A stretch of DNA of 46,896 nt from Chitinophaga pinensis (GTDB taxonomy: Bacteria; Bacteroidota; Bacteroidia; Flavobacteriales; Flavobacteriaceae). Of the stretch, positions 12,214-20,042 are shown in pieces (positions within the stretch are counted from its first letter, which is position 1; each line of letters begins with the position of its first letter). The DNA lies in the NCBI GenBank assembly GCA_943324545.2, contig CALPMA020000003.1, positions 1 to 46,896 of the forward strand, written 5' to 3'. The notes beneath the pieces were generated by a model. The model made no database searches, was not told where the DNA came from, and saw only the letters and a program-made list of their open reading frames with translations. Made by a program: the position numbers and the translations under genes.

Positions 12214-12259
12214 GTGGGAAAACTTATTAACAAAGTGGTATTTTGTGGTAAATTGTGGG
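12214..12259 (+). promoter_or_regulatory. Putative MraZ operator: phased GTGGK repeats
   Basis: GTGGG 12214, GTGGT 12235, GTGGT 12245, GTGGG 12255; last three have exact 10-bp period. Confidence 0.72.
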
Positions 12260-12269
12260 AATTTTTATT

Positions 12270-12277
12270 TATTTTTG
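12270..12277 (+). promoter_or_regulatory. -7 promoter element (TATTTTTG) of the dcw operon
   Basis: TAnnTTTG match 26 nt upstream of mraZ TTG start. Confidence 0.5.
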
Positions 12278-12303
12278 TCAGTATCATTTAAAAACAAGTA
12301 AAA

Positions 12304-12777
12304 TTGAATTCAATTATTGGAACATATGAATGCAAAGTTGATGCTAAAGGAAGGTTGCTTTTACCTGCGCCTTTGAAAAAGCAATTGTCAGCCGCACTTC
12401 TTGATGGCTTTGTCTTGAAGCGTTCTGTTTTTCAACCTTGTTTAGAATTGTATCCAATGGCAGAATGGAACTTGATGATGAATAAAATCAACAAGTTGAA
12501 CCGATTTGTAAAAAAGAATAATGATTTTATTCGTCGTTTTACTGCTGGTGTTAAAGTAGTAGAAATAGACACTTTAGGTAGATTGTTAGTGCCTAAAGAT
12601 TTGGTTGCCTTTGCATCAATTTCCAAAGATTTGGTGCTTTCTTCAGCAGTTAATATAGTTGAAATTTGGGATAAAGATTTGTATGAAAATTTTATTTCTA
12701 ACGATGAAGTTGACTTTGCAGATTTAGCAGAAGAGGTAATGGGTAATGTAAATGATGATGAAAATGGAATATCATAA
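12304..12777 (+). CDS. mraZ: Transcriptional regulator MraZ (TTG start)
   Basis: IGTYECKVDAKGRLLLPAPLKKQL and VEIDTLGRLLVPKDL AbrB-like repeats. Confidence 0.96.
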   Translation: MNSIIGTYECKVDAKGRLLLPAPLKKQLSAALLDGFVLKRSVFQPCLELYPMAEWNLMMNKINKLNRFVKKNNDFIRRFTAGVKVVEIDTLGRLLVPKDLVAFASISKDLVLSSAVNIVEIWDKDLYENFISNDEVDFADLAEEVMGNVNDDENGIS

Positions 12778-13660
12778 TCCTGTTTTATTAAAAGAATCGG
12801 TAGACGGACTTGATATTAAGCCTGATGGAATATATGTAGATGTGACTTTTGGAGGAGGAGGTCATTCTAAAGAAATCTTGAATAGGTTAGGTCCTAATGG
12901 CAGATTGTATGCATTCGATCAAGACGAAGATGCGCTTGCGAATTCAATTGATGATGAGCGATTTGTTTTGATAAATGAGAATTTTCGATTCATAAAAAGA
13001 TTTTTACGATTTCATAATGTAAAAAACGTTGATGGAATTTTAGCTGATTTAGGAGTTTCATCTCACCAATTTGATGTTGCTGAACGCGGTTTTTCGACTC
13101 GTTTTGAAGGGGAACTGGACATGAGGATGAGTCAAAAACAGGACTTAAACGCTTATAAAGTAGTTAATGATTATGATGAAATTAATTTAAGAAGAGTGTT
13201 TCTTGATTATGGAGAATTAAAGAATGCTCCAGTAATAGCTCGAGTAATTATTGAGGCTCGCGAGTATGAACCTATAAAAAACACAGAACAACTAAAAGTG
13301 GTTTTAGGACGTTTTTTACAAGCTCATAAAAGTCACAAAATATTAGCTCAAATGTATCAAGCTATTCGAATAGAGGTCAATCAAGAAATGGAAGTTTTAA
13401 AAGATTTTTTAGAACAATCACTTGAAATATTGAAACCAGGGGGAAGATTAAGTGTTATATCTTACCATTCACTAGAAGATAGATTAGTAAAAAGAATCAT
13501 GAAAAACGGAATTTTTGAAGGGGAGCCAGAAAGGGACTTCTTTGGAAATTTTTCTGTCCCATTTAATCTAATTGGAAAATTAATTGTTCCTGATTTTAAT
13601 GAAATTAAGAGTAACAATAGAGCTCGCAGCGCAAAATTGAGAATTGCAGAAAAGAAGTAA
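12764..13660 (+). CDS. rsmH: 16S rRNA (cytosine(1402)-N(4))-methyltransferase RsmH
   Basis: MEYHNPVLLKESVDGL; DVTFGGGGHSKEIL; GILADLGVSSHQFD; VISYHSLEDRLVK. ORF track start 12752; ATG 12764 preferred. Confidence 0.96.
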   Translation: MEYHNPVLLKESVDGLDIKPDGIYVDVTFGGGGHSKEILNRLGPNGRLYAFDQDEDALANSIDDERFVLINENFRFIKRFLRFHNVKNVDGILADLGVSSHQFDVAERGFSTRFEGELDMRMSQKQDLNAYKVVNDYDEINLRRVFLDYGELKNAPVIARVIIEAREYEPIKNTEQLKVVLGRFLQAHKSHKILAQMYQAIRIEVNQEMEVLKDFLEQSLEILKPGGRLSVISYHSLEDRLVKRIMKNGIFEGEPERDFFGNFSVPFNLIGKLIVPDFNEIKSNNRARSAKLRIAEKK

Positions 13661-13664
13661 AATA

Positions 13665-14015
13665 ATGAAAAACGGAGTTTACAGTATACTAAAGGCAAGG
13701 TTTTTAATAAATGAAGAAGCGAATGCGGCTAAAAATTGGCGTTTCATAGTATTTCTGATTTTACTAGCAATTATTATGATTGCAAATAATAATAATGTAG
13801 ATCAAAAAGTATTTAAAATTATTCAATTAACAGGAGAAGTAAAAGAGTTGCGTTCAGAATTTGTAGATCGAAGATCAGAATTGATGAAATTAAGAATGGA
13901 ATCGACGGTAACTCAAAAAATGGCTGAAAAAGGGATTTTACCCGCATCTGTTCCGCCGGTTAAAGTAATAGTAAAGAAAAAAGAAGATAAAGGATTTTTT
14001 AAAAATCTATGGTAG
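13665..14015 (+). CDS. FtsL-like cell division protein
   Basis: Position between rsmH and PBP; single TM helix then coiled-coil; ORF track start 13644 overlaps rsmH, ATG 13665 preferred. Confidence 0.8.
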   Translation: MKNGVYSILKARFLINEEANAAKNWRFIVFLILLAIIMIANNNNVDQKVFKIIQLTGEVKELRSEFVDRRSELMKLRMESTVTQKMAEKGILPASVPPVKVIVKKKEDKGFFKNLW

Positions 14016-16012
14016 AAGATAATAAAAATAGCACCTTAAGAATTTATATTGTTGCAGTTGTAATCTTTTTTATGGCGGTTGCAATTGTACTAAAAATAAC
14101 TAATATCCAATGGGTACAAGGAGACTCTTTACGAAAATTAGCTAACAAACATTCGATTAAAAACTTTATTATACCTGCTAATAAAGGAAATATATATTCT
14201 GCTGACGGCAGTTTATTGGCCACCTCAATACCAAATTACAATATTCGTTTTGATGCTATTGCACCAAATGTTAATGATTTTCAAAAAAACATAAAACCAT
14301 TATCGGATTCTTTAGCATTATTATTCAACAAACCTAGTAATTATTTCCAATTAGAACTTACCAGGGCAAGAACAAGTGGTAATAGATTTTATTTATTAGC
14401 TAGAGACTTAAGTTACACTGAATACATGAAAATCAAACAATTTCCACTTTTCAAACTAGGAATTTATAGAGGTGGAATTATTGTAGAACAAAAGGTAGTT
14501 AGAAAACATCCAATAGGTGAAATTGCTTCGCGAACCATTGGTTATGAAAGAATTACACCTGAAGGATTGCCTGATGGAAAAGGAATTGAGTGGGCGTTTA
14601 GGAAATATTTAAATGGAAAAGACGGTAAAGTACTTAAGCAGAAAATAGCTAAAGGACAGTGGAAACCTATTCGTGATGTGAACGAAGTAGAGCCTCAAGA
14701 TGGCTATGATATTATTTCAACACTTGATGTTTATATTCAAGATATTGCACATCATGCATTAATGGATCAATTAATAAAGTACAAAGCAGATCACGGGTGT
14801 GTTGTGGTTATGGAAACCAAAACAGGATATGTTAAAGCAATTTCTAATTTAGGAAAAATCGCTGATAATACCTACGCTGAAACTACTAACTATGCCATAG
14901 CAGAATCCCACGAACCTGGTTCTACATATAAATTAGCCGACTTGATGACGCTACTTGAAGATAAAAAAGTAGATACAAGTGCCGTATTCAATACTAATGG
15001 TGGTGTAATTACTTATTTTGGAAATAAAGTAGTTGATTCTCATGAAGGAGGATATGGATCTATTTCATTGGCTAAAGGTTTTGAAAAATCATCTAATACT
15101 GTAATGGTTCAAGCGGTTTATAATAATTATAAAAATCAACCTTCAAAATTTGTAAATCACCTCAATGCCTATGGTTTAAATTCTAAGTTAGGATTACCGT
15201 TTCAAGGTGAAGGTGAGCCATACATACCTCAACCAACTGATAAAACCTGGTCTAATATTTCACTTCCTTGGATGGCTTTTGGTTATGGAGTTTCGATAAC
15301 CCCTCTTCAAACCTTAACCTATTATAATGCTGTTGCTAATAATGGAGAAATGGTAAAACCACAATTTGTCTCAGAAATTAAAGAATGGAATAGAACAGTA
15401 AAAAAATTCGATAAAAAGGTAATGAACCCTAAAATATGCTCACAAGAAACAATTTTGAAATTGAAGGCTGTTTTGGAAAATGTTGTAAAAAGAGGAACCG
15501 CATCAAAATTATATACAAAGGATTTTTCTATGGCTGGAAAAACAGGAACTGCTCAGGCTAACTATGGAACAAATGGTGGGGCAGACAAACACTATATATC
15601 CTCATTTGTAGGTTATTTTCCAGCTGACATTCCTAAATATTCTTGTATAGTTGTAGTTCACGATCCAGATTCTTCAAATAATAATTATTATGGTGCAGAT
15701 GTCGCTGGACCAGTATTTAAAAGAATTGCTCAAAAAATATTTACCGATTCACCCACAAAGAATGAAGTTAAGAATTTGGAATTAAAAAATTCTAATCAAG
15801 AAAAAGATTACTCTGTTTATTATAAAAAGTCACTAGATAAAAAGGATGTAATTCCGAATTTAAAGGGAATGTCTGGAATGGATGCAGTGGCTTTATTAGG
15901 GAATTTAAAAGTTAAAGTAAGAGTAATTGGAGTTGGAAAAGTAATAAAACAGTCATTAAACCCAGGCGAAACTATAAATAGCAATACTATTATAACATTA
16001 GAATTATCGTGA
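14009..16012 (+). CDS. ftsI: Class B penicillin-binding protein (FtsI/SpoVD-like) with C-terminal PASTA domain
   Basis: STYK (SxxK), SSN, KTGTAQ motifs; C-terminal VIPNLKGMSGMDAVALL PASTA-like. Confidence 0.94.
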   Translation: MVEDNKNSTLRIYIVAVVIFFMAVAIVLKITNIQWVQGDSLRKLANKHSIKNFIIPANKGNIYSADGSLLATSIPNYNIRFDAIAPNVNDFQKNIKPLSDSLALLFNKPSNYFQLELTRARTSGNRFYLLARDLSYTEYMKIKQFPLFKLGIYRGGIIVEQKVVRKHPIGEIASRTIGYERITPEGLPDGKGIEWAFRKYLNGKDGKVLKQKIAKGQWKPIRDVNEVEPQDGYDIISTLDVYIQDIAHHALMDQLIKYKADHGCVVVMETKTGYVKAISNLGKIADNTYAETTNYAIAESHEPGSTYKLADLMTLLEDKKVDTSAVFNTNGGVITYFGNKVVDSHEGGYGSISLAKGFEKSSNTVMVQAVYNNYKNQPSKFVNHLNAYGLNSKLGLPFQGEGEPYIPQPTDKTWSNISLPWMAFGYGVSITPLQTLTYYNAVANNGEMVKPQFVSEIKEWNRTVKKFDKKVMNPKICSQETILKLKAVLENVVKRGTASKLYTKDFSMAGKTGTAQANYGTNGGADKHYISSFVGYFPADIPKYSCIVVVHDPDSSNNNYYGADVAGPVFKRIAQKIFTDSPTKNEVKNLELKNSNQEKDYSVYYKKSLDKKDVIPNLKGMSGMDAVALLGNLKVKVRVIGVGKVIKQSLNPGETINSNTIITLELS

Positions 16013-17472
16013 TTAATCTAAAAGAGATACTTTGGAAAGTAGCAATTGAGTCCGTTCAGGGAACTACGGATCTTGCTATTGAAAAAATGGAATTTGATTC
16101 TCGGAAAGTTACTGAGAACGATGTCTTTATTGCTATTCGAGGAACAATTTCTGATGGCCATGAGTTTATAGAAACAGCAATAAATAAAGGCGCTATTGCA
16201 ATTATTTGCGATGAATTTCCTAAAATCATTGTTCAAGTTATTACTTACATAAAAGTCAACGATACCAATAAAGCAATGGCCTTTATGGCAGCAAATTATT
16301 TTGATAATCCTTCTCAAAAACTAAAATTAATCGGAATTACAGGCACCAACGGTAAAACTACCATTGCATCCTTATTGTTCCAATTATTTCAAAAAGCAGG
16401 AAATAAAACGGGATTGCTTTCAACAGTTAAAATTGTTGTTGATAAAAATGAATATAAGGCAACCCATACCACGCCAGATTCTATTTCAATAAATTATTAT
16501 TTAAATGAAATGGTAAGTGCTGGAGTTGAATATTGTTTTATGGAAGTGAGTTCGCATGGAATTCATCAAAAAAGAACAGAAGGATTGCATTTTACTGCTG
16601 GCGTTTTTACCAATTTGTCACACGATCATTTAGACTATCACTCTTCATTTTCAGAATATAGAGATGTTAAAAAATCATTTTTCGATTATTTGCCAAAAAC
16701 TGCTTTCGTATTGTCCAATATTGATGATAAAAACGGTTCGGTAATGATGCAAAATACAGCGGCAAAAAAACGGTCATACGCTCTAAAAACTTTTGCTGAT
16801 TATAAAGCACAAATTTTAGAAAATCAGTTGTCTGGATTATTACTTAAAATTAATGACAATGAAGTTTGGGTTCGATTAATAGGAACTTTTAATGCCTATA
16901 ATTTACTCGCTATATATGGAACAGCTGTTGAATTAGGTATGGAATCATTGGAAGTACTTAGATTATTATCAGAGTTAGAAAGTGTTTCGGGCAGATTTCA
17001 ATACATAATTTCTAACGGTAAAATTACTGCAATTGTTGATTATGCACACACACCAGATGCTTTAGAAAACGTACTAAAAACCATTAGCGATATTCGAACA
17101 AAAAACGAACAATTAATTACCGTTGTGGGTTGCGGAGGCGACAGAGATAAAACAAAAAGACCCTTGATGGCTGGTATTGCTTCCGATTTAAGTGACAAAA
17201 TAATTATAACATCCGATAATCCAAGAACCGAGAATCCCGAAACAATTATTGAAGAAATGGAACGTGGAGTTGCTCCTCAAAATTATAAAAAAACAGTTTC
17301 TATAATTGATAGAAAACAGGCAATTAAAGCAGCTTGTCAATTGGCACAAACCAATGACATTATCCTAATTGCCGGTAAAGGTCATGAAACCTATCAAGAA
17401 ATTAATGGGGTACGCTATGATTTTGACGATATGAAAATTGTAAAAGAAATGTTAGATCAATTGAACAAATAA
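16009..17472 (+). CDS. murE: UDP-N-acetylmuramoyl-L-alanyl-D-glutamate--2,6-diaminopimelate ligase (GTG start)
   Basis: GITGTNGKTT; CFMEVSSHGIHQKR; DNPRTENP motif typical of mDAP-adding MurE. Confidence 0.95.
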   Translation: MINLKEILWKVAIESVQGTTDLAIEKMEFDSRKVTENDVFIAIRGTISDGHEFIETAINKGAIAIICDEFPKIIVQVITYIKVNDTNKAMAFMAANYFDNPSQKLKLIGITGTNGKTTIASLLFQLFQKAGNKTGLLSTVKIVVDKNEYKATHTTPDSISINYYLNEMVSAGVEYCFMEVSSHGIHQKRTEGLHFTAGVFTNLSHDHLDYHSSFSEYRDVKKSFFDYLPKTAFVLSNIDDKNGSVMMQNTAAKKRSYALKTFADYKAQILENQLSGLLLKINDNEVWVRLIGTFNAYNLLAIYGTAVELGMESLEVLRLLSELESVSGRFQYIISNGKITAIVDYAHTPDALENVLKTISDIRTKNEQLITVVGCGGDRDKTKRPLMAGIASDLSDKIIITSDNPRTENPETIIEEMERGVAPQNYKKTVSIIDRKQAIKAACQLAQTNDIILIAGKGHETYQEINGVRYDFDDMKIVKEMLDQLNK

Positions 17473-17482
17473 AATTTAGAAT

Positions 17483-18709
17483 ATGTTATACTATTTATTT
17501 GAATACCTAAACAAAGCCTTAAATATCCCCGGAACTGGAGTTTTTCAATATATTACTTTTAGATCAGCTTTGGCATTGATTTTATCATTATTGATTTCGA
17601 CCATTTTTGGTAAAAGAATCATTAATTTCTTAAGAAATCAACAAGTAGGAGAAACAGTTCGAGAACTTGGCCTTGAGGGGCAATCTCAAAAAGCGGGAAC
17701 TCCAACAATGGGAGGTTTAATAATTATTATTGCCACTTTAATACCAGTTTTATTACTTACAAAATTAAATAATATCTACATCATACTATTAATTGTTACT
17801 ACAATTTGGATGGGAACAATAGGTTTCATTGATGATTATATTAAAATTTTCAAAAAAGATAAAGAAGGACTTAAAGGTATTTTTAAGGTTTTTGGTCAAG
17901 TTGGATTAGGAATCATTGTTGGTTCTGTATTGTATTTACATCCAGATGTTACCGTTAGAAATGATTCCAATTTAAAAGCACCTATGGTGCAAACCGAAAA
18001 CGTGATTCAACAAGCACCACTTGAAGAAAAATCTACCGCTACAACAATTCCATTTTTTAAAAATAATGAATTTGATTACGCGGAGATACTTGCATGGACA
18101 GGGGATGGATACGAAAAATGGTCGTGGTTAATTTTTATCCCTTTTGTTATTTTTATTATAACTGCAGTTTCAAACGGAGCCAATTTAACCGATGGAATTG
18201 ATGGATTAGCTGCAGGAACATCCGCTATTTCAGTACTCGCATTGGCAATATTCACTTTTGTGTCGGGTAATATCGTTTTTTCAAATTATTTGAACATTAT
18301 GTACATCCCAGATTCTGGGGAAATGACCGTTTTCATTGCCGCTTTTATTGGAGCATTGGTTGGATTTTTATGGTATAATTCTTATCCAGCATCAGTTTTT
18401 ATGGGTGATACAGGTAGTTTAACTATTGGAGGAATAATTGCTGTTTTGGCAATTTCGGTTCGTAAAGAAATGCTTATTCCTTTGGTGTGTGGTATTTTCT
18501 TAGCAGAGAATTTTTCAGTAGTACTGCAGGTTGCTTATTTCAAATATACTAAAAAACGTTTTGGTGAAGGCCGAAGAATATTTTTAATGTCACCACTTCA
18601 TCATCACTATCAAAAAAAAGGGTATCACGAAAGCAAAATAGTTACCCGATTTTGGATTGTAGGAATATTATTGGCAATAGTTTCAATTGTAACATTGAAA
18701 TTAAGATAA
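17483..18709 (+). CDS. mraY: Phospho-N-acetylmuramoyl-pentapeptide-transferase
   Basis: [44 protein letters not shown]. Confidence 0.97.
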
Positions 18710-18710
18710 T

Positions 18711-20042
18711 ATGAGATTAGTCATACTTGGCGGTGGCGAAAGCGGGGTTGGAACCGCAATTCTAGGAAAGAAAGAAGGATATGATGTTTTTGTTTCTGAT
18801 TATGGAAAAATAAAACAAATTTATAAGGACGTTCTTAATCAATACGAAATAATTTGGGAAGAAGAAAAGCATTCAGAAGAAGCAATTCTTAATGCCGATT
18901 TGGTAATGAAAAGCCCGGGAATTCCCGATAAAGCGCCGATTGTAAAATTGCTTATTGAAAAGAAGATTCCAGTAATCTCGGAAATTGAGTTTGCAGCGCC
19001 TTTTACAAAAGCGAAAACGATTGGTATAACAGGTAGTAATGGAAAAACTACTACTACAATGTTAACCTATCATTTGCTAAAATCGGCAGGACTAAATGTT
19101 GGCTTGGGTGGGAATATTGGAAAAAGCTTTGCTTGGCAAGTAGCCGAAGATAATTACGATGTCTATGTTTTAGAATTAAGTAGTTTTCAATTAGATGGCA
19201 TTATAAATTACAAGCCGAATATTGCAATTATCACCAATATTAGCCCCGATCATTTGGATCGTTATGAATATAATTATGAAAATTACATCGCTTCAAAATT
19301 TAGAATAACAATGAATCAAATTGAAAGCGATTATTTGATTTACGATGCAGATGATGAAGCAATGACCAATTGGTTTAAAAAAAATAAAACAAAAGCACAA
19401 TTAATTCCTTTTTCAATTTCAAAAATAGTTGAAAATGGAGCATTTTTAAAAGATAATACTATGGAAATCAACATCAACGAAGAAGAGTTTGTAATGGAAA
19501 CACAGTACATTGCACTAGAAGGAAAACACAACATGAAGAACGCTATGGCAGCAACTTCTGTTGCAAAATTAATGCAAATTCGTAAACAAACCATACGTGA
19601 AAGTTTGTCTAATTTTCAAGGGGTAGAACATCGTTTGGAAAAAGTACTAAAAATTCAAAATGTACAATATATCAACGATTCTAAAGCTACCAATGTAAAC
19701 GCTACTTTTTTTGCTTTGGACAGTATGAATTCGCCAACAGTTTGGATTGTTGGTGGGGTTGATAAAGGAAATGATTATTCCGAATTAATGTCTTTGGTTC
19801 ATGAAAAAGTGAAAGCTATAGTATGTCTTGGTGTAGACAATAAGAAAATTATTGATTCATTCGGAAATATTGTAGATATGATGATAGAAGTTACCAATAT
19901 GAGAGATGCCGTTACTATGGCTCAAAGATTAGCAGAAAAAGGAGATACAGTGCTTTTATCACCAGCTTGCGCAAGTTTTGACTTATTTGAAAACTATGAG
20001 GATAGAGGAAATCAATTTAAAAATGCAGTACAGCATTTGTAA
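18711..20042 (+). CDS. murD: UDP-N-acetylmuramoylalanine--D-glutamate ligase
   Basis: KSPGIP; GITGSNGKTTTT; VLELSSFQLD; NDSKATN. Confidence 0.96.
   Translation: MRLVILGGGESGVGTAILGKKEGYDVFVSDYGKIKQIYKDVLNQYEIIWEEEKHSEEAILNADLVMKSPGIPDKAPIVKLLIEKKIPVISEIEFAAPFTKAKTIGITGSNGKTTTTMLTYHLLKSAGLNVGLGGNIGKSFAWQVAEDNYDVYVLELSSFQLDGIINYKPNIAIITNISPDHLDRYEYNYENYIASKFRITMNQIESDYLIYDADDEAMTNWFKKNKTKAQLIPFSISKIVENGAFLKDNTMEININEEEFVMETQYIALEGKHNMKNAMAATSVAKLMQIRKQTIRESLSNFQGVEHRLEKVLKIQNVQYINDSKATNVNATFFALDSMNSPTVWIVGGVDKGNDYSELMSLVHEKVKAIVCLGVDNKKIIDSFGNIVDMMIEVTNMRDAVTMAQRLAEKGDTVLLSPACASFDLFENYEDRGNQFKNAVQHL

Follow-up and report, generated by a model that had tools for sequence, protein, structure and literature searches.

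In E. coli, the operator of mraZ reportedly consists of TGGGN direct repeats with 5-nt spacers, located upstream of mraZ and after the promoter. In Mollicutes, the MraZ box has been written as (AAAGTGKN3)3 (Fisunov 2016, as quoted in PMC5282649), and PMC8475190 gives it as AAAGTG[T/G]. MraZ operators as such are already known. The replication initiator DnaA, for its part, binds the ftsL promoter region in B. subtilis and the ftsZ promoter in Caulobacter (PMC8203912, PMC11019786), and it controls nrdAB in E. coli (PMC8203912). Here, we analysed the region upstream of mraZ in a window of 46,896 nucleotides (the whole stretch of DNA under study), in which three GTGGK repeats lie next to a 9-mer that resembles a DnaA box. 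Judging from comparisons with related genomes, positions 12214-12277 are probably a composite DnaA/MraZ control site of the dcw promoter, with a candidate DnaA box in fixed register with the array. A literature search that covered few subscription journals gave no report of such a composite DnaA-box/MraZ site, nor any description of a Flavobacterium DnaA box, oriC or DnaA regulon.

Results

The mraZ locus and its upstream array

The following features are referred to throughout:

12214..12218, + strand: outlying GTGGG, possible accessory MraZ half-site (21 bp upstream of repeat 1; conservation)
12224..12232, + strand: DnaA-box-like 9-mer TTATTAACA, in the context AACTTATTAACAAAGTGG (conservation and fixed register; shared with the putative oriC)
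12235..12239, + strand: GTGGT, candidate MraZ operator repeat 1 (direct reading, counts, conservation)
12245..12249, + strand: GTGGT, candidate MraZ operator repeat 2 (same evidence)
12255..12259, + strand: GTGGG, candidate MraZ operator repeat 3 (same evidence)
12270..12277, + strand: Bacteroidota-type -7 promoter element TATTTTTG (TAnnTTTG; consensus match, conserved offset)
12304..12777, + strand: mraZ, TTG start, first dcw gene and probable source of the ligand of the array (PF02381, E=8e-26)
12752..13660, + strand: rsmH (mraW), overlapping the end of mraZ (PF01795, E=1.7e-91)
13644..14015, + strand: ftsL, Bacteroidetes type (PF19579, E=7.9e-39)
14009..20042, + strand: downstream dcw genes, which we take to be ftsI/pbp, murE, mraY and murD from their translations, recognised by eye

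A preliminary description of this DNA had placed mraZ in a Bacteroidota dcw cluster, in agreement with the PF02381 match of its product and with the rsmH and Bacteroidetes-type ftsL genes that come next. By sequence, the mraZ product is related to the solved MraZ chains 1n0e and 9qlg; for the MraZ structures 9qlg, 9r4j, 9sx6, 9sz7 and 9qlr (2025-26) the literature search gave no papers. A MraZ 97% identical to that of the window is found in a metagenome-assembled record titled Rhizobium sp. Q54, which is probably a mislabelled or contaminated bin.

Direct reading confirmed all four GTGGK copies where they had previously been placed, the exact 10-bp period of the three that start at 12235, 12245 and 12255, and the -7 element at 12270-12277 followed by the mraZ TTG at 12304. 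The triple GTGGK at 10-bp period matches once in the window and in 0/100 dinucleotide shuffles. In the 1.97-Mb host genome a pattern count likewise gave a single match, and the reversed pattern was absent. The site is essentially the sole one of its kind, with one copy in the host and one in most genomes of the genus.

Conservation of the repeats and of their spacing among relatives had been proposed as a check on the MraZ-operator reading, and such conservation is what we found. We read the upstream regions of 90 mraZ genes, sampled within the genus and in other families of its order, and the 10-bp GTGG array was nearly universal among them. In an independent set of 80 named Flavobacterium-type loci, which partly overlaps the 90-gene set (some contigs are identical), mraZ was preceded by three GTGG copies with an exact 10-bp period in 80/80 cases. 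The genus, g1 in our sample, is equated with Flavobacterium by inference, as close relatives of the window's MraZ are named Flavobacterium or Flavobacteriaceae. Across the genus, GTGGN6GTGGN6GTGG was found in 117 of 121 genomes, mostly once; its reverse was almost never seen. Across Bacteroidota, mraZ is commonly preceded by an array of two to four repeats. In family f9, where MraZ is divergent (about 41% identity), the GTGG array is kept and the DnaA-box-like element is missing.

The repeats are direct, have a GTG/TGGG core and a 10-bp period, and lie directly 5' of the mraZ gene that heads the dcw cluster. The array matches the (AAAGTGKN3)3 box of Mollicutes, and many relatives read AAAGTGGTAAAAAGTGGTAAAAAGTGGT. 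These similarities support the three GTGGK repeats as a candidate operator for MraZ, which the first gene of the cluster encodes.

The outlying GTGGG was only partly as first described. It had been called an extra phased half-site; the GTGGG is present 21 bp upstream of repeat 1, but it is off the 10-bp phase by 1 bp. GTGG at this offset occurs in 79/80 of the named Flavobacterium-type loci, in 45 of 59 sampled loci of the genus and in 4 of 29 loci of other families.

A DnaA-box-like 9-mer in fixed register with the array

The sequence between the outlying GTGGG and the array, AACTTATTAACAAA, contains the 9-mer TTATTAACA (12224-12232), which the preliminary description had overlooked. It reads TTATYAACA in 80/80 named Flavobacterium-type loci, and in 82 of 88 loci of an order-wide sample it begins upstream of the repeat-1 register by exactly 11 bp. 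Seven loci have a degenerate repeat 1 that has lost its GTGG, and there the 9-mer and repeats 2 and 3 stand at unchanged offsets. The 9-mer and the array are physically joined: the heptamer AAAGTGG of repeat 1 occupies 12232-12238, and the 9-mer ends on its first A.

In an alignment anchored on the array, information content within the genus was 1.62 bits per base for the 9-mer, 2.36 for the repeats and 0.29 for the upstream flank; the corresponding values in other families were 0.80 for the 9-mer and 0.12 for the flank. The composite pattern of 9-mer plus array was found in 38 of 396 Bacteroidota genomes, never twice per genome, and its reversed control had zero matches among the same 396. 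All 24 genus genomes listed carry it, as do 13 of 18 genomes of other genera of the family. Genomes without the composite pattern belong mostly to other orders, in which arrays are shorter or placed differently. Some permuted motifs also scored highly at mraZ (maximum 65/90), since further words are conserved in that region and these motifs coincide with them.

Promoter geometry

In 65 of 88 loci we found a -7-like element whose offset from repeat 1 is +35/+36, against a background of 5% per 36-bp stretch; the named loci have it in 80/80 cases. We sought a -33 partner as a TTG 17-21 bp upstream of the -7 element, and it was almost never present in the 88 loci. The host has no TTG at 17-21 bp from TATTTTTG, and the array sits in that place. 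Transcription would start near 12282, about 5 bases after the -7 element, which would put the array at about -47 to -23, the place of the -33 element, and the DnaA box at about -58 to -50.

The earlier suggestion that the operator lies over the upstream promoter region holds for this locus; such placement is the rule in Flavobacteriales, but most of the other Bacteroidota sampled do not share it. In many loci from outside the order, TTGAC and a TAnnTTG-like element come before the array. Given this comparison, in which the order of operator and promoter was read by consensus matching, the operator appears to have shifted: its position with respect to the promoter is not the same in Flavobacteriales as in most of the other Bacteroidota sampled.

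The same 9-mer at a putative oriC and at replication genes

We dropped an oriC adjoining dnaA because few boxes occur at dnaA loci, and the origin was therefore sought by GC skew. Skew was profiled in one genome (G045, a single contig), in twenty 20-kb stretches that sample 11% of its length, and the cumulative minimum fell between 0.72 and 0.88 Mb. Within the 880-900 kb stretch, skew passes from negative to positive at the intergenic region between rpiB and rnr. This region (L264:4700-5400) contains TTATCAACA three times, TTATTAACA once and several near-matches, and we regard it as a putative Flavobacterium oriC that lies away from dnaA. The ybeY region was also considered as an origin and rejected: it has a box cluster in one genome alone (G022), and the other 28 have none but one stray box.

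Boxes of the form TTATYAACA have conserved spacings at the candidate oriC, both in G045 and upstream of rpiB in the loci of relatives (L279-L307). The 700 bp upstream of rpiB hold 68 strict boxes in 29 genomes, compared with a mean of 3.8 for permuted motifs; the main forms are TTATTAACA and TTATCAACA, and a strict box is missing in 4 of the 29. This cluster was read in relatives, the host assembly being without rpiB.

Boxes also occur upstream of nrdB in 23 of 30 genomes and upstream of dnaB in 26 of 30, as against about 1 for permuted motifs; upstream of the control gene ybeY they occur in 0/30. The host genome itself has boxes at nrdB, dnaB and hup. In three genomes including the host, an HU-type gene (recognised by eye) is preceded by box pairs exactly 20 bp apart, and in several genomes a box pair lies between dprA and a divergent gene, both again recognised by eye. 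Since the 9-mer itself was the search pattern, these are enrichments at chosen places and not an unbiased regulon. On this basis, mraZ, nrdB, dnaB, hup and dprA may form a candidate DnaA regulon of Flavobacterium.

At the putative oriC and the nrdB and dnaB promoters the 9-mer is found again, likewise with either C or T at position 5. TTATTAACA differs from the TTATNCACA-type box of E. coli at position 6 and equals a repeat of the putative oriC of the genus; TTATCAACA differs from the E. coli consensus TTATCCACA at the same position. In genus g27, genome G150 has TTATCCACA at oriC, nrdB and mraZ alike, and two g27 genomes have it at mraZ. In family f5, the DnaA-box clusters are of the form TTATCCACA and the 9-mer at mraZ is TTATYAACA; therefore, the mraZ element is not always the locally preferred box. 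The f5 clusters are dense, with nine boxes in about 1 kb in G088 (L153:450-1480), and another is found in G077 (L152:1000-1170). Two more clusters, each of five to six TTATYMACA boxes, occur in G058, one of them inside a ThiE-like reading frame; these are possibly titration sites or chance.

The recognition helix of DnaA (DHxTV) was compared with box position 6. Its variable residue is Ala in most Flavobacteriales and Ser in f5, g27, f9 and f17; G150, for example, has Ser where the Flavobacterium-type genus g1 has Ala. Within family f1, Ala at this residue (E. coli position 435) goes with TTATYAACA and Ser with TTATCCACA, with exceptions in f5, f7, f21, G090 and G142. The covariation of residue 435 with A or C at box position 6 is a suggestive lead with a partial match. 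Because of the exceptions (f5, G090 and G142), we do not use it as proof.

Discussion

We favour the reading of 12214-12277 as a site shared by DnaA and MraZ. Repression by MraZ at a Flavobacterium-type array is an extrapolation, in which MraZ, as a ring-shaped oligomer, would sit on the array and occlude RNA polymerase, so that mraZ and the genes downstream come under a negative loop. DnaA, bound beside the array on the same helix face, could touch either the polymerase or the end of the MraZ assembly and so alter repression. Division-gene transcription would thereby track the state of replication initiation. Given that the heptamer AAAGTGG shares its first A with the box, DnaA and MraZ might compete at repeat 1. 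The register is kept where repeat 1 is lost, which argues instead for contact along one helical face, either with what remains of the complex or with the polymerase. Lone DnaA boxes are usually weak sites. A bolder version, which we offer tentatively and find possible more than probable, is that the Flavobacteriales dcw promoter is a two-input switch without a -33 element, with DnaA and MraZ side by side on one helical face and the replication initiator directly gating the division genes; the operator, once located after the promoter, would have come to lie over it as the DnaA box was gained.

One question regards the sign of the MraZ effect. It is conceivable, though in our view rather doubtful, that MraZ is an activator that replaces the missing -33 contact, and not a repressor. 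The near-complete lack of a TTG at 17-21 bp from the -7 element would suit such a role, as would the fixed distance of 35/36 bp between the array and the -7 element. However, an array at about -47 to -23 would overlap the polymerase footprint, which is the usual position of a repressor. Precedents from other bacteria point both ways: PMC8475190 cites raised FtsZ accompanying MraZ overexpression in M. gallisepticum, but MraZ represses in E. coli and M. genitalium, and in the latter loss of mraZ raises mraW and ftsZ (PMC8475190).

Alternatively, the MraZ operator may be the only functional part, and TTATYAACA an extension of the MraZ site or a curvature or UP-like element needed by MraZ or RNA polymerase, with the likeness to a DnaA box being coincidental. 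The perfect register with the array and the base shared with the first AAAGTGG heptamer are compatible with this, and so are the departure of TTATCAACA from the E. coli consensus TTATCCACA at position 6 and the mraZ element of family f5, which does not have the form of the f5 clusters. Nonetheless, we consider it unlikely. The same 9-mer recurs at sites for which no GTGG array was noted, namely the putative oriC and the promoters of nrdB and dnaB; the two g27 genomes have TTATCCACA at mraZ, a form that G150 also has at oriC and nrdB; and the MraZ arrays of most other Bacteroidota are without the element.

It is still less likely, and improbable overall, that the element is bound by some other replication- or division-linked regulator with nrdB, dnaB, hup, dprA and mraZ as its regulon. 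Conserved sites before several replication genes would be expected of any S-phase-type regulator, but the sites are densest in the intergenic region where GC skew changes sign, which is where DnaA boxes would be expected, and in E. coli DnaA is firmly known to act on nrdAB (PMC8203912). A G-quadruplex, for which a role upstream of mraZ has been reported in S. aureus (PMC11796246), was rejected as highly improbable: it would take four tracts of at least three G with short loops, but most tracts here are GG, with 6 to 17 bases between them, and the conserved feature is GTGG at exact 10-bp period, often with T or A next, a pattern suited to a protein that reads one side of the double helix. Finally, that the array is made of chance repeats of AT-rich intergenic DNA is contradicted by the shuffles, the genome counts and the conservation in the genus, and we rejected this reading as virtually without probability.

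A DnaA-like box exactly 11 bp from the operator of a division regulator, order-wide, provides a concrete single-site hypothesis for a link between replication and division. Additionally, the composite site has yielded a candidate DnaA box, a putative location of oriC and a small candidate DnaA regulon for Flavobacterium.

Comparison with known systems

There is a close likeness with the MraZ box of Mollicutes, which also has three direct repeats with a GTG core at a 10-bp period, as a single site per genome directly 5' of mraZ. In contrast to that box, the array described here has a DnaA-box-like 9-mer fused to its 5' side in fixed register and, within Flavobacterium, a further GTGG at -21. 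The E. coli mraZ operator shares with it the TGGGN-type repeats, the 5-nt spacers and the location upstream of mraZ in the dcw cluster. However, the E. coli operator follows its promoter, an order (promoter, then array) shared by most other Bacteroidota sampled, whereas here the array lies upstream of the -7 element and over the -33 position.

On the DnaA side, E. coli nrdAB is comparable in that DnaA boxes near its promoter set the level of transcription, and conserved boxes are also found 5' of nrdB in the genomes analysed here; the partners of DnaA at nrdAB are Fis and other factors, not MraZ. The ftsL region of B. subtilis and the ftsZ promoter of Caulobacter resemble the proposed arrangement, with one or more DnaA sites at the promoter of a division gene and a proposed link between replication and division. 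Unlike in those two systems, the candidate box of Flavobacteriales is joined to a MraZ operator, at a fixed offset of 11 bp across the order.
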